Assembly: GCF_945956895.1 (NCBI RefSeq)
Contig: NZ_CAMFJF010000009.1
Location: 62,001-126,000, forward strand
Direction: 5' to 3'
DNA from: an uncultured Allobosea sp.
GTDB lineage: Bacteria > Pseudomonadota > Alphaproteobacteria > Rhizobiales > Beijerinckiaceae
DNA: 64,000 nucleotides
In this document: positions 58,216 to 64,000 of the stretch, one piece after another
Numbering within the stretch: position 1 is the stretch's first letter
How the letters are laid out: each line of letters starts with the position of its first letter
The notes under the pieces: model-generated
What the model was told of the DNA's origin: nothing
Seen by the model: only the letters and a program-made list of their open reading frames with translations
The model's database searches: none
Position numbers and translations under genes: made by a program

Positions 58216-58306
58216 GGAGACGTGGCCGAGAGGCTGAAGGCACTCGTTTGCTAAATGAGCATACCCCACAAGGGTATCGAGGGTTCGAATCCCTCCGTCT
58301 CCGCCA
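58216..58306 (+). tRNA. tRNA-Ser (anticodon GCT)
   Basis: GGAGACG/CGTCTCC acceptor, anticodon loop TTGCTAA, variable arm ACCCCACAAGGGT, GGTTCGAATCC T-arm, encoded CCA. Confidence 0.95.
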
Positions 58307-58413
58307 CTTCCCTTCAAGCCTCTGAAATCCCTTGAAGACCGTTGATACACAACGGCTTTTCCCATACCTCTGCTACAAAGTTTGCTACAAAATCGCCTCT
58401 GGCAGAGGGTTTC

Positions 58414-60132
58414 ATGGCCGGCAAAATCAGGAACCTGCTCCCGCGTAATGGGCGCTATTATGCTCGCCTTACCGTCCCTGCTTTGCTTCGTCCGATCGTC
58501 GGTAAGCGCGAACTGACTGAGCCCCTGGGAGCCGACCGGACTGTCGCGATTCGCCTGCTATCATCTGCGATTCATCGCATGCAGATGGAATTGGATCAGG
58601 CCCGCGACCGCGTGGCTGCCCTTAGCCCTTCCGCACCCTCCCGGCGTCGCCCCATGAGCGTGCGGCAGATGGCCCTTGCCCACTTCGACCGCGAGCTTCA
58701 GCGCGACGACACAGCCCGCAGCCTGCCGAACGGCTATGACCCGGCGCATGAGGCGAAATTCCGCCCGACCTACTATTACGCGCTCAAGCGTGCCGCGAGC
58801 GGCGGCGCCGAGGACGACGAGCTTGCCGCCCTAATCCAATGGGCTGTTGACGAGTTCGCGAATGATGGTAGCCCCGTCCCTGCAAAAGGCACCGAGGAAT
58901 GGCGCTCTCTCGCCCGGATGCTCGCCGGCGTGAAGGCTGAATCGATTGAAAATCAGAACCGCCGCGACCGTGGGGAAGCGGACGCCCCGCCAAAGCACCC
59001 AATGCTGATCCCGGCGACGGAACTGCCCTCGACAACCGCCGATCCTTTGCGCGTCCGCATCATCAGCCCGGACAGCGCGAAGGCCCTCTCCGTCGTCCTG
59101 TCGGCGATGATGACAGAGAAGCAGGGCAAGCCCGGCACCGTCTATGAGTATGAAGTCGCCGTGCGCATGTTCGAGGAATTCCTAGGCGAGGCGAAGCCGG
59201 CCTATCGGATCACTCGGCAGGATGTCCTGGCCTACAAGAACGCCCTGCTCGAAACGCCCGCAAACTACACCAAGCGCTTCCCCGACAAGACGCTCCCCGA
59301 GACGATCCGGCTCAACAAGGCACGGAAAGAGCCCTTCCCTACACTCAACGCCACAACCATCAACGACAAATGGCTATCCCGGCTGAGCGCGCTTCTGACA
59401 TGGTGCGTCAACAACAGCGTCATTCCCGACAACCCGGCGAAGGGCGTGCGCGTGGATCAGAGCAACCGCGACCCTGACGACGACCGCGACTATTTCCGCG
59501 ACGCCGACCTTCAGAAGATATTCGCGGCGCCCCTGTTTGATCCCTCGCCAAAGCTGACGGAAAAGCGTTGGGCGCTGCTCATAGCGCTCTACTCCGGCAT
59601 GAGGGCATCGGAGATCGCCCAACTTCGCCTCGATAGCATCAGCGAAGTTCGCGGCGTGCTGGCATTCGCCGTGGAAGAGAAGACGAAGAACAAACAGTCG
59701 CGGCGGCTGGTCCCGGTGCACCGGACGCTGCTCGCGCTCGGCCTGCATGACCGCATCGCTCAACTGCGGAGGAACGGCACCGACCGCCTGTTCCCCGATT
59801 GGTTCCGGGATGGGCAAGCCATGATGCAGAGCGCGGAAGGAAAGAAGCGCGCCGTAAACCAGCCCTACAGTCAGTTTATCCCGCGCTGGTTCAATCGCAC
59901 CTATCTCCCGAAGGTCGGCATTCACGACCAGAACAAGGTATTCCACTCGTTCCGGCACACTTTAAAGACGGCACTAAAGCTCGCCGGCGTGCCCAAATCG
60001 GTTCGCGATGAGATCGCAGGGCAGGATGATCGCTCGGCTGGCGCCGGCTACGAGCACGAAACCTCGCTCGACGTGCTGAAGGAGGCTCTTGACCGTGTGG
60101 CCTATGATTTGCCGGAACTTAAGGCAACGTAA
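58414..60132 (+). CDS. int: tyrosine-type site-specific integrase
   Basis: 'LLIALYSGMRASEIAQLRLDSI', 'VFHSFRHTLKTALKLAGVPKSVRDEIAGQDDRS', 'AGYEHETSLDVLKEALDRV'; ATG MAGKIRNLLPRNGRYYARLTVP. Confidence 0.93.
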   Translation: MAGKIRNLLPRNGRYYARLTVPALLRPIVGKRELTEPLGADRTVAIRLLSSAIHRMQMELDQARDRVAALSPSAPSRRRPMSVRQMALAHFDRELQRDDTARSLPNGYDPAHEAKFRPTYYYALKRAASGGAEDDELAALIQWAVDEFANDGSPVPAKGTEEWRSLARMLAGVKAESIENQNRRDRGEADAPPKHPMLIPATELPSTTADPLRVRIISPDSAKALSVVLSAMMTEKQGKPGTVYEYEVAVRMFEEFLGEAKPAYRITRQDVLAYKNALLETPANYTKRFPDKTLPETIRLNKARKEPFPTLNATTINDKWLSRLSALLTWCVNNSVIPDNPAKGVRVDQSNRDPDDDRDYFRDADLQKIFAAPLFDPSPKLTEKRWALLIALYSGMRASEIAQLRLDSISEVRGVLAFAVEEKTKNKQSRRLVPVHRTLLALGLHDRIAQLRRNGTDRLFPDWFRDGQAMMQSAEGKKRAVNQPYSQFIPRWFNRTYLPKVGIHDQNKVFHSFRHTLKTALKLAGVPKSVRDEIAGQDDRSAGAGYEHETSLDVLKEALDRVAYDLPELKAT

Positions 60133-60220
60133 CGTTAGAAGCGGCTCAGCCAGCGATGACCCGCTTTCCTAATCGTGATTTGACGCTAAAAGGCAACGAC
60201 TACGCACGGAGCCCTGACCT

Positions 60221-60847
60221 ATGAATTCGGCCCTTGAGTTCGTTTCACAGAATATTGGCGTGATCGGCGGATGGACCGCCGTTTTCACGGTTTTTTGCGG
60301 CATCACTGCGTGGGTTGCGAATTTTGTAGCCAATCGCAGCATGGAAAAACACAAATCTACGTTAAACTCCGACCTGGAAACGCACAAATCTTCACTTTCT
60401 CAAAAAACTGAAGCATTGAAATCGGAGCTTAATCAGAGCGCAGAGCGACTTAAACTTGATCTGAAGAAACAAGAGATCATCTTTAACAAAGAAATTGATT
60501 GCTTTTCTGCATTCGCAAAATTAAGGAGATCTGTTTTTCCGAAAGCAAATTACCCTGATTACGATTCCTATGATGCCAGCGTCGATATAAATGACAATCT
60601 TTTCAAGATTGAACAATTGATTGAAGATTTTGAAATATCCCATGGAGTCGCCTTGCGAGAAGACGCCAGAATTATGCTAGAGAGCTGCAAACAGATTTGT
60701 TCAAATTACAAATTTGAACGCTTTGACAACCCAGAAAGAACGTTGTCAAAGCAGGCCGAAGAAGGTGCTTTCGAACTTATGCGGAAATTGACCGAAGTCG
60801 AATCAGCCATGCATCGATCGATTAAAACTTGGGATGCACCTAAGTAG
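60221..60847 (+). CDS. hypothetical membrane-anchored hendecad coiled-coil protein
   Basis: 208 aa; N-terminal hydrophobic helix, then four 11-residue repeats, then 'QEIIFNKEIDCFSAFAKLRRSVFPKANYPDYDSYD'; low GC relative to neighbours. Confidence 0.8.
   Translation: MNSALEFVSQNIGVIGGWTAVFTVFCGITAWVANFVANRSMEKHKSTLNSDLETHKSSLSQKTEALKSELNQSAERLKLDLKKQEIIFNKEIDCFSAFAKLRRSVFPKANYPDYDSYDASVDINDNLFKIEQLIEDFEISHGVALREDARIMLESCKQICSNYKFERFDNPERTLSKQAEEGAFELMRKLTEVESAMHRSIKTWDAPK
60344..60475 (+). repeat. four in-frame 33-nt units encoding hendecad repeats
   Basis: EKHKSTLNSDL / ETHKSSLSQKT / EALKSELNQSA / ERLKLDLKKQE. Confidence 0.75.
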
Positions 60848-60927
60848 GATTTTGATCCTAATTTCTATTGCTCCGCGATTCCATGTGTGAGACAATTCTT
60901 CACCGTTAAATTGGTGAAGGTTGAGTT

Positions 60928-62166
60928 GTGTTCCGCGAGTTAGTCGGCAGCGTAAGGAAGTCACTCGGATTTCAGTTCGACCGGAAGGCAATCCCAGCTT
61001 CTGATCCTGCGTTCTCTGAGCTATTCGGCGCGCTGCCGACTGCCTCCGGTGTTTCGGTTACTCCGCATACCGCCCTTCGCGTCCCGGCTGTCTTTCATGC
61101 GATCAGGCTGATCTCTGAGAACGCCGGCTCAATCCCGTTTAAGGTCTATCGCGACGGCAGCAAGGAAGCCGCGAAGGATCACCCCGCCTATCGGCTCGTC
61201 CACAATCGCGCCGCCGACCATCTCAGCGCTGCCCAGTTCCGCACGGACCTGACTTGGGACGCGCTGCTTCATGGTGCTGGCTTCGCGCAGGTGATCCGCA
61301 CCGATGATGGTCGCCCGTATGCGTTCCGATATCTGCCGCCCGGCACCTGCCGTCGCGAGATCGATGATTTCGGCGAGCCCTATTTCATCGTCACGCTGAA
61401 GGATCGCCGTCAGGTCCGGCTCTCTACTCGTGATGTGCTCTATCTGCCGGCGCCCGGTTACACCTCGCCCGTCAACCTCGGCAGGGAGGCTATCGGCGTT
61501 GCGATGCTCTTGGAGCGTCACGCCGCCAAGTTCTTCGGCTCTGGCGCCCGCCCGTCCGGCGTCCTCTGGAACGAGAACAAGGTTCCAGACAATGACAAGG
61601 GCAGCACTGTCGTCGGCAACATGCTCGCCGATTATCGCAAGGCCTTCCTCGGCGAAGGAGATTCCCGGCCGCTGATCCTTCAGGGCGGCTGGCGCTACCA
61701 GGCCGCGACGATGAACAGCACCGACGCGCAGTTCATCGAAAACCGCGTTGAGCAGACCCGCGAGATTGCCCGCCTCTTCGGCGTCCCGCCGACCATGCTT
61801 TTCGACCTTTCGGACGGCACCTACGCCAACACCGAGCAGATGGAAGCCAGTTTCCAGCGCGTTGCGCTTCGGCCGTGGCTCGACCGCTGGCAGGACGCCT
61901 ATGCGACCGTGCTGCTCACCGAGGACGAGCAGGACGAATTCTACATTGAAGCCGTCATTGACGACCTTCAGCGCGCCGACGCGAAGGCCAAGGCGGAAGT
62001 CTTCAGCAAGCATCGCGCGGCCGGCAACGTCACCGCGAATGAGGTTCGCGCCACTATGAACATGCCGGCCCTGCCGGGTGGTGATGTGCTGGCGAACCCC
62101 TTCACCACGACCGGCGACACCGCCGGCAGCAATGACAACCCCGACACCGGAAAGGACGCCGCTTGA
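60928..62166 (+). CDS. phage portal protein (HK97-type)
   Basis: GTG start; 'TALRVPAVFHAIRLISENAGSIPFKVYRDG', 'PAYRLVHNRAADHLSAAQFRTDLTWDALLHGAGFAQVIR', 'TREIARLFGVPPTMLFDLSDGTYANTEQMEASF'. Confidence 0.93.
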   Translation: MFRELVGSVRKSLGFQFDRKAIPASDPAFSELFGALPTASGVSVTPHTALRVPAVFHAIRLISENAGSIPFKVYRDGSKEAAKDHPAYRLVHNRAADHLSAAQFRTDLTWDALLHGAGFAQVIRTDDGRPYAFRYLPPGTCRREIDDFGEPYFIVTLKDRRQVRLSTRDVLYLPAPGYTSPVNLGREAIGVAMLLERHAAKFFGSGARPSGVLWNENKVPDNDKGSTVVGNMLADYRKAFLGEGDSRPLILQGGWRYQAATMNSTDAQFIENRVEQTREIARLFGVPPTMLFDLSDGTYANTEQMEASFQRVALRPWLDRWQDAYATVLLTEDEQDEFYIEAVIDDLQRADAKAKAEVFSKHRAAGNVTANEVRATMNMPALPGGDVLANPFTTTGDTAGSNDNPDTGKDAA

Positions 62167-62525
62167 GCGACGTTACGACCGTCGCATTCTTCGGCGACGC
62201 AGAGCACTCCTTTGCACTGACGCCATGGGCGCAGCTTGAACTTGAGAAGCTAACCGGCATCGGCATGGGCGCGCTGTGTCTTCGGCTTCCGCAGGGCGAT
62301 TTCCGCATTGTCGAGATCGTCGAGACCATCCGGCTCGCGTTGATCGGTGGCGGTATGGCTCCGCAGGCTGCCGCACATCTTGTCGAGACCTACGCCAAGC
62401 CCCGCCCCATCGGCGAGACGTTCCCGCTCGCGGTTCGCATCCTTTACCGGCTCTGGAATGGCAAGGACCCGGAGTCCGAAGCCGAGGGCCAGGACGACGA
62501 CCCGCTCATGGTGTCCGATGTCTGA
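62163..62525 (+). CDS. gene transfer agent family protein (GTA gp10-like)
   Basis: 'FFGDAEHSFALTPWAQLELEKLTGIGMGALCLRL..FRIVEIVETIRLALIGGGMAPQAAAHLVETY'; overlaps portal stop. Confidence 0.7.
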   Translation: MSDVTTVAFFGDAEHSFALTPWAQLELEKLTGIGMGALCLRLPQGDFRIVEIVETIRLALIGGGMAPQAAAHLVETYAKPRPIGETFPLAVRILYRLWNGKDPESEAEGQDDDPLMVSDV

Positions 62526-63012
62526 GCGCCTTGAGATCAAGGCCGTGCTCTCGATCGACGACGCCGGCACCATCACCGGGAACGCATGGCCTTTCGGCAG
62601 CGCTGATAGCGTCGGAGACATCATCACCAAGGGCGCCTTCAACATCCTCGGCGAAGACACGCCGATGCTGCTTCAGCACGATCCCGGCCAGCCTGTCGGC
62701 ATCTGGAACGAGATCACCGAAACTGCTGACGGCCTTCAGGTGAAGGGGCGCCTCTTCATTGAGGAAAGCCAGCGCGCCCGCGCCGTCCGCTCCATGGTGA
62801 AGAGTGGCCTCATCTCCGGCCTGTCCATTGGCTTCCGCCCCATCGAGGCGAAGCAGCGCGGCCGGAACCGCATCATTTCCAAGCTCGACCTCTTCGAAAT
62901 CTCTGTCGTCCGCAATCCGGCCCATCCCAAGGCCCGGATCACGAACGCCAAGGACGCCACGGCTGCCATTGCCGAGGCAATCAACCGCGCCGCCGTGGCG
63001 CTCAATCCCTGA
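62518..63012 (+). CDS. HK97 family prohead protease
   Basis: ATG at 62518; 'SVGDIITKGAFNI', 'PMLLQHDPGQPVGIW', 'MVKSGLISGLSIGFRPIEA', 'LDLFEISVVRNPAHPKARI'. Confidence 0.92.
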   Translation: MSERLEIKAVLSIDDAGTITGNAWPFGSADSVGDIITKGAFNILGEDTPMLLQHDPGQPVGIWNEITETADGLQVKGRLFIEESQRARAVRSMVKSGLISGLSIGFRPIEAKQRGRNRIISKLDLFEISVVRNPAHPKARITNAKDATAAIAEAINRAAVALNP

Positions 63013-63022
63013 AAGGACCAAC

Positions 63023-64000
63023 GTGAACAACCTCGCCCATATTGAACTGAAGTCCGACGACGCCGACAACGTGCCGGCCGATGTCGCTTCGGCGCTCGCC
63101 AATCTGACGAGTTCCGTGGACGCCCGCCTCAAGGCTATCGAGACGAAGAGCGACGCCCGCCTCGACAAGCTGGAAGCCAAGGCCAATCGCCTGCCGGCTT
63201 CGAACGACAATCAGGCCGAGGACGCCCTCGAAACCAAGGCGTTCAGCGACTTCCTGCGCACCGGCCAGATTGACCAGAAGGCCCTGACGGTCGCGAACGA
63301 TGCGCCGGGATATGTGCTCGCGCCGGAAGAGACCACGAGCGAGTTCATCCGCAACCTTGTCGAGTTCTCCCCGGTGCGCGCGATCGCGGACGTGAAGTCT
63401 GCCGGCTCGCACACCGTCATCCTGCCGAAGCGCCTTTCGGTCACGAATGCGAAGTGGAAGGGCGAAGCCATCGCGTCGGAAGCGTCCGAGCCGACCTTCG
63501 GCGAGATGGAAATCGCCATCAAGGAGCTGAACACCCACGTCGATATCAGCAACTGGCTTCTGGAGGACGCGCAGAACGTCGAGTCCGAGGTTCGGCTTGC
63601 GCTCGCCGAGGACTTCGGCGCCAAGGAAGGCACCGCCTTCGTCAACGGCAGCGCCGCCGCCGAGCCGAAGGGCTTCATGACCGAAGCCGGCATCGCACAG
63701 TCCCTCAACGGCCATGCGACGAACCTGTCGGCCGATGCGCTGATCTCTCTCATGTATGCCCTGCCGGGCGTTTATCGCAGCCGTGGCACTTGGGCCATGA
63801 ACGGCTCGACGCTTGCGACCATCCGCAAGCTGAAGGACGGCAACGGCAATTACCTGTGGCAGCCCAGCTATCAGGCCGGCCAGCCCGAGACGATCCTCGG
63901 CCGCCCGGTTGTCGAGCTGATCGACATGCCGGACGTTGCCGCCAACGCTTTCCCGGTCATCTTCGGCGACTTCAAGGCCGGCTATCGCATCTATGACCGG
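63023..64000 (+). CDS. phage major capsid protein, HK97 family (partial, runs off window)
   Basis: Manual translation from GTG 63023: MNNLAHIELKSDDADNVPADVASALANLTSSVDARLKAIETKSDARLDKLEAKANRLPASNDNQAEDALETKAFSDFLRTGQI...GYVLAPEETTSEFIRNLVEFSPVRAIADVKSAGSHTVILPKR...; SD AAAGGA upstream; absent from supplied ORF track. Confidence 0.92.
   Translation, partial: MNNLAHIELKSDDADNVPADVASALANLTSSVDARLKAIETKSDARLDKLEAKANRLPASNDNQAEDALETKAFSDFLRTGQIDQKALTVANDAPGYVLAPEETTSEFIRNLVEFSPVRAIADVKSAGSHTVILPKRLSVTNAKWKGEAIASEASEPTFGEMEIAIKELNTHVDISNWLLEDAQNVESEVRLALAEDFGAKEGTAFVNGSAAAEPKGFMTEAGIAQSLNGHATNLSADALISLMYALPGVYRSRGTWAMNGSTLATIRKLKDGNGNYLWQPSYQAGQPETILGRPVVELIDMPDVAANAFPVIFGDFKAGYRIYDR

Follow-up and report, generated by a model that had tools for sequence, protein, structure and literature searches.

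A serine tRNA gene near the right end of a 64,000-nucleotide stretch of DNA from an uncultured Allobosea species (the window; G000:C9:62001-126000, where G, C and L numbers denote genomes, contigs and loci) marks the start of a compact mobile element whose genes continue past the window's edge. Positions in locus L003 equal window positions minus 58000. Using ARAGORN and Pfam, we confirmed the series that a first-pass annotation had read from the letters, namely tRNA-Ser(GCT), integrase, one accessory gene, portal, a gp10-like gene, prohead protease and HK97 capsid, all on one strand and all with intact frames. The tRNA gene (58216..58306, +; also recognised by Rfam) is the integration target. 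Its 3' end forms attL, with a 19-nt core (58290..58308, +) that is repeated at attR of the related elements in Bosea G018 and G012 and also at the extreme end of contig G000:C111. The tyrosine integrase of 572 aa (58414..60132, +) combines DUF6538 with Phage_integrase (PF00589), has a longer TTG start at 58342 that is also open, and shares 92% identity with its counterpart in the G018 element. The slot between integrase and portal holds cargo, here an open reading frame (ORF) of 208 aa (60221..60847, +) with a transmembrane segment and a coiled coil by inspection. Its GC content is about 43%, compared with 0.6-0.67 over the rest of the element, and it gave no Pfam match and a weak PHROG match (phrog_1009). 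The portal protein (60928..62166, +; PF04860, E=5.7e-80) is followed by a tail assembly chaperone of the gene transfer agent (GTA) gp10 type (62163..62525, +; PF11836), a prohead serine protease (62518..63012, +; PF04586) and an HK97-fold major capsid protein (63023..64000, +; PF05065, E=3e-71), which ends 135 nt past the window at L003:6135. The closest solved structure to the latter is the Rhodobacter capsulatus GTA (RcGTA) capsid (6tb9, E=1e-39).

Past the window, the contig continues for another 8.8 kb, to position 134799. On the 3' side of the capsid gene lie g205 (with a weak TAC_6 match under the Pfam cut-off), an HNH gene, the small ORF g95, a gp6-type connector, a gp17-type tail terminator and a head closure gene, and then the terminase genes TerS and TerL (L003:8705-10722). 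The absence of a terminase, repressor or replication gene before the portal had thus been noted correctly; the terminase is located after the capsid instead, outside the window. TerL is followed by an HK97-gp10 neck protein, a tape-measure protein (TMP) of 741 aa and a 143-aa protein (g143), whose structural model (pLDDT 89.5) bears a weak likeness to PUR-alpha ssDNA/RNA-binding repeats (E at least 7e-3). Past g143 there is a terminator-like hairpin and then non-coding DNA up to the contig end. In the 14.5 kb from the att core to that end, no tail tube, tail tip, fibre, lysis gene or recognisable replication gene was found. The contig terminus itself is a 52-bp dispersed repeat (L003:14748-14799) that also terminates contigs C34 and C19 of G000 and has many copies in Bosea genomes; an rRNA suspected at this end was excluded by Rfam.

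An attR copy of the tRNA 3' end, expected by the first-pass annotation past 64 kb, was not present in the remaining contig. The core (18 nt) was found once more in G000, at G000:C111:6786-6803 (L098), and the contig terminates exactly there. Over about 100 bp, the flank of this copy is similar to the inverted G012 element at that element's tRNA-proximal end, and it matches none of the other neighbours. The copy is therefore at most a candidate attR, and could instead be a branch arising from a mixed population of integrated and excised copies.

Relatives of the element supplied complete boundaries. Portal and TerL profiles run against Hyphomicrobiales genomes and IMG/VR recovered about 85 loci of one gene order: integrase, portal, tail assembly chaperone, protease, capsid, g205, HNH, g95, connector, gp10, terminator, closure, TerS, TerL and TMP. 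Seventeen of them are complete elements between direct repeats, four in Bosea and 13 in other Hyphomicrobiales (Aminobacter, Pseudaminobacter, Pseudorhizobium, two Rhizobium, Shinella, Aquamicrobium, Brucella grignonensis, Ochrobactrum, Martelella, Nitratireductor, Pararhizobium and a Rhizobiales isolate). Their sizes fall between 16.7 and 18.9 kb (mean 17.94, sd 0.57). In 16 of the 17 the repeats are 17-49 bp long and lie on tRNA 3' ends, whereas the weakest complete case (L122) has a 14-bp repeat and no tRNA was found there. Six tRNA types serve as targets (tRNA-Ser, Thr, Pro, Gln, Val and Gly), and the orientation varies, the integrase being distal to the tRNA in some members. The window element deviates from the common order at one point, its gp10 gene standing between TerL and TMP. 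Both gp10 and TMP share 52-55% identity with those of another Bosea element (G017:C2, see below), suggestive of a swapped gp10-TMP cassette. Between G000 and G060, protease and capsid show 92-96% identity, compared with about 60% for the neighbouring proteins, which on sequence grounds is a sign of module exchange between members.

Among 67 genomes of Bosea, the genus to which the window belongs, portals at least 60% identical occurred in five besides the window's own (the one in G041 is cut by a contig end). The integrases of these Bosea relatives are 26-92% identical to that of the window element and target tRNA-Ser or tRNA-Thr. With g205 as a satellite-specific marker, 21 of 398 Hyphomicrobiales genomes matched at E<=1e-8, a few of the matches being weak or partial. 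Phage records contained only distant relatives of the portal and TerL (<60%) and none of the terminator or g205, and a search of NCBIfam gave no matches. A description of the family was not found in the literature searched, which did not cover the source paper on capsid-forming phage-inducible chromosomal islands (cf-PICIs).

A comparison with empty tRNA-Ser sites had been proposed at the outset. In Bosea G005 an unoccupied tRNA-Ser core is directly joined to DNA that is 82% identical over 249 bp to the sequence 3' of the G018 attR; because the core runs straight into a G018-type flank, the insertion is clean. The G005 flank itself appears to be part of a different element that has an integrase of its own, which makes the site a hot spot and not strictly empty. 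A further integrase-like ORF lies right after attR in another locus (L046:18076-19068) and likewise after the tRNA in L060, which marks tRNA-Ser as a hot spot of accretion.

The right end of the element also contains a candidate structured non-coding RNA of about 430 nt (L003:14008-14440, +; contig position G000:C9:134008-134440, 8 kb past the window). It is conserved in 11 other sequences, ten of them in satellite loci and one (L297) in a less clear context. Compensatory changes affect 27 of 79 base pairs, a number equalled in none of 500 shuffles, and the fold z-score on the + strand is -6.1. There was no Rfam match. The RNA model matches six of 398 Hyphomicrobiales genomes, two of them weakly; one strong match (L322) has no satellite gene within the roughly 1.5 kb shown on each side.

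A decayed prophage, that is, a temperate siphophage that lost its tail, lysis and regulation genes by deletion, had been offered as one reading of the compact locus. Decay of such elements does occur, as a portal fragment adjoining tRNA-Ser in Bosea G053 illustrates. Yet 17 complete elements, spread over six tRNA types and many genera, keep the same order and size, and inheritance of one old deletion by vertical descent is at odds with the differing integrases and target tRNAs. The dN/dS ratios between members are low (protease 0.12, capsid 0.21, integrase 0.06, portal 0.21, TerL 0.10, TMP 0.13), and the portal and TerL frames of the members are all open, with no stops. These values and the open frames indicate that the element is not decayed, and we consider a deletion remnant highly improbable. 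Likewise, neither a 35-60 kb prophage nor frameshifted structural genes, either of which the first-pass annotation would have taken as refuting a satellite, came to light: the complete relatives measure 16.7-18.9 kb, their frames are open, and tail tube, tip, lysis genes and repressor do not occur together in the element as they would in a complete temperate siphophage.

The tail genes of the family raise another alternative, an autonomous virus of 18 kb whose tail tube, lysis and receptor functions reside in unrecognised genes. The family encodes a tape measure, two tail chaperones and a terminator, with gpM in 10 loci and gpI in four, and several conserved ORFs at the right end are unannotated, all of which would fit such a minimal phage. 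The right-end genes differ among members, however, where constancy would be expected of essential tail and lysis genes. Pfam recognised 20 families in 88 accessory representatives, among them no tail tube, lysis or replication family; defence-like families were HEPN, GmrSD_N and an N6_N4 methyltransferase with Mrr (PADLOC was also run). Against PHROGs the accessory genes fell into 42 families, 25 of them among the matches listed. Tube, tip and fibre were not found. Tail-tube queries gave no match in the ~18-kb family, whereas the same queries, as a positive control, matched a sister group (L188-L202, L240) and the Methylorubrum plasmid pMPOP02. We therefore regard an autonomous phage as rather improbable. 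One accessory protein, A6, is encoded in 16 loci (L211:13035-13952 and 15 others) and has the invariant H-x-H-G motif and tyrosine of the HUH Rep signature. It had no Pfam or PHROG match, and none is visible in G000. Its model (pLDDT 60, with a better core) gave as best PDB matches the Rep nuclease domains of AAV (E 2e-3 and above), which is suggestive of an HUH-type Rep candidate.

Taken together, the element is probably a capsid-forming phage satellite belonging to a family of ~18-kb elements across Hyphomicrobiales. Since it encodes what is needed to build and fill a head of its own, lacks complete tail and lysis genes, and has elements of its kind across rhizobia-like bacteria, it most likely spreads by borrowing the tail of a virus. 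Gene content and boundaries were read from the sequence; from them we infer helper dependence, excision, a hybrid tail and transfer. A helper phage or a similar trigger would induce the element, and the integrase would excise it as a circle. A subset of members may replicate with an HUH Rep of their own, the others through helper or host, before TerS and TerL would package the DNA into a small capsid, made by the satellite and sized for ~18 kb. On a helper tip, tube protein of the helper would polymerise into a tail with the satellite tape measure and chaperones as template, and this hybrid tail would be joined to the head via the satellite terminator and neck. After lysis of the cell by the helper, the DNA would reintegrate at a tRNA of the recipient or, in plasmid members, persist as a plasmid. 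The small satellite with head and terminase genes but no tail or lysis genes, as envisaged by the first-pass annotation, thus largely stands, with relatives of ~18 kb and no tube, tip or lysis gene found; "head only" proved inexact in view of the tape measure and tail chaperones, and regulators of phage-inducible chromosomal islands (PICIs) were not recognised.

Several observations weigh against this reading. The window element's own attR is unassembled, so that its completeness rests on analogy with its relatives. Divergent lysis or tail functions could be concealed among the unrecognised ORFs of the last ~5 kb, and for a tail thief it is unusual to have a tape measure but no tube. Furthermore, no helper was identified in the five carrier Bosea genomes, in which PF04860 portals were the only portal family searched. 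The PF04860 portals there are those of the satellite plus, in four of the five, that of a GTA; in G000 the GTA-like cluster begins at a contig edge and its portal was not seen. This cluster (G000:C8:1-8536, L311) carries tail genes, with tube-like, TMP-like and J-like ORFs.

These GTA genes bear on two further explanations. The element itself might be a domesticated GTA whose particles package host DNA and serve the host, and its GTA-gp10-type chaperone and RcGTA-like capsid would agree with that. A GTA, though, occupies a fixed host locus and has no integrase or att sites, whereas the element has its own integrase, att repeats, varied tRNA targets and plasmid versions, and in Bosea the GTA-like cluster lies at another locus. 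The integrase and repeats, together with this separate cluster, contradict the GTA-like origin also suggested by the first-pass annotation and make it exceedingly improbable. Alternatively, the satellite may steal only part of a tail. With a tape measure, chaperones and terminator of its own, it would set the tail length itself and take tube and tip from another particle system in the cell. Because the carrier Bosea genomes yielded no further HK97-type portal than that of the GTA, we speculate that the helper may be a GTA and not a phage; this version as a whole seems unlikely.

Related lineages extend the capsid-forming satellite beyond the integrated state. Plasmid unnamed5 of Paracoccus marcusii (L328, NZ_CP157016.1) is a circle of 17,494 bp in which the genes from portal to TMP keep the family order; it encodes both an HUH Rep and a plasmid Rep, and no integrase was recognised. 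The combination of circular replicon, capsid module and Rep is confined to this relative, the window element being integrated. Related but less alike are pTT14-8 of Roseomonas mucosa (16,883 bp) and pMPOP02 of Methylorubrum (L329, NC_010721.1; 23,392 bp), the latter with capsid module, tail tube, TMP, HUH Rep and an interrupting Tn3 transposon. The sister group, counted apart from the ~18-kb family, has the same head module with one or two tail-tube genes and no g205, its members, which may be satellites or phages, being mostly 14-19 kb in IMG/VR. Finally, a second compact lineage in Bosea, the element at G017:C2:6657-24366 (L332, L094), spans 17,635 bp between 51-bp tRNA-Thr repeats. It shares with the window element the order portal to TerL-gp10-TMP and the compact, tRNA-bounded size; it differs by a weak HTH_17 match (AlpA/excisionase-like), an AAA_25 helicase-like gene and a helix-turn-helix repressor candidate beside its head module and TMP, and by the absence of g205. 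It has a TMP but gave no tail-tube match, and it looks closer to PICI architecture than the window family does.

If the satellite reading is true, tail-stealing satellites are common in Hyphomicrobiales, where they would usually pass for short viral contigs or incomplete prophages. Natural experiments would then be at hand on what a satellite must keep (head, packaging, tape measure) or may discard (tube, tip, lysis), on how the capsid constrains genome size and on how satellites pass from the integrated to the plasmid state or back. The family would also contribute an RNA family absent from Rfam.

The closest known systems are the cf-PICIs (Alqurainy et al. 2023, as cited in PMC10690885, PMC10803314, PMC11389934 and PMC12846349). 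As described in these citing papers, cf-PICIs are, like the element, small integrative islands with their own integrase, and the full cf-PICI set of HK97 capsid, protease, portal, connectors, TerS, TerL and HNH is present in the element, its att repeats being known from relatives; complete tail or lysis genes are recognised in neither. As far as these descriptions go, cf-PICIs measure ~14 kb (PMC10803314) compared with ~18 kb here, and an E. coli cf-PICI capsid is also related to the RcGTA capsid (PMC12846349). By analogy with cf-PICIs, and as judged from its genes, the element probably works in the same way, with its own head and packaging and a helper tail (PMC10690885, PMC11389934). It differs in that the portal comes first and TerS/TerL near the end, and in having TMP, two chaperones and terminator. 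A PICI regulation and replication module (AlpA or Stl, primase) was recognised neither in the window element nor among the accessory genes of the 17 elements, which is why we do not file the element as a PICI. This separation relies on how the citing papers describe cf-PICIs, and some of our elements may already be among the published ones. Satellite-plasmids (cf-PISP) have been proposed in Vibrio, with none reported outside that genus (PMC13230959); as capsid-encoding satellites in plasmid form they parallel the 17.5-kb Paracoccus circle, whereas the present family is alphaproteobacterial, mostly integrative and equipped with TMP. Mulch and Flayer of Streptomyces likewise carry full encapsidation genes, MulchRoom having a tail of helper length, but have direct terminal repeats, virulent helpers, different genes and no reported TMP (PMC10690885). 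RcGTA-type GTAs, in turn, share the gp10-type chaperone and a related capsid with the element and differ from it by their tube and tip, the lack of an integrase and a separate locus.

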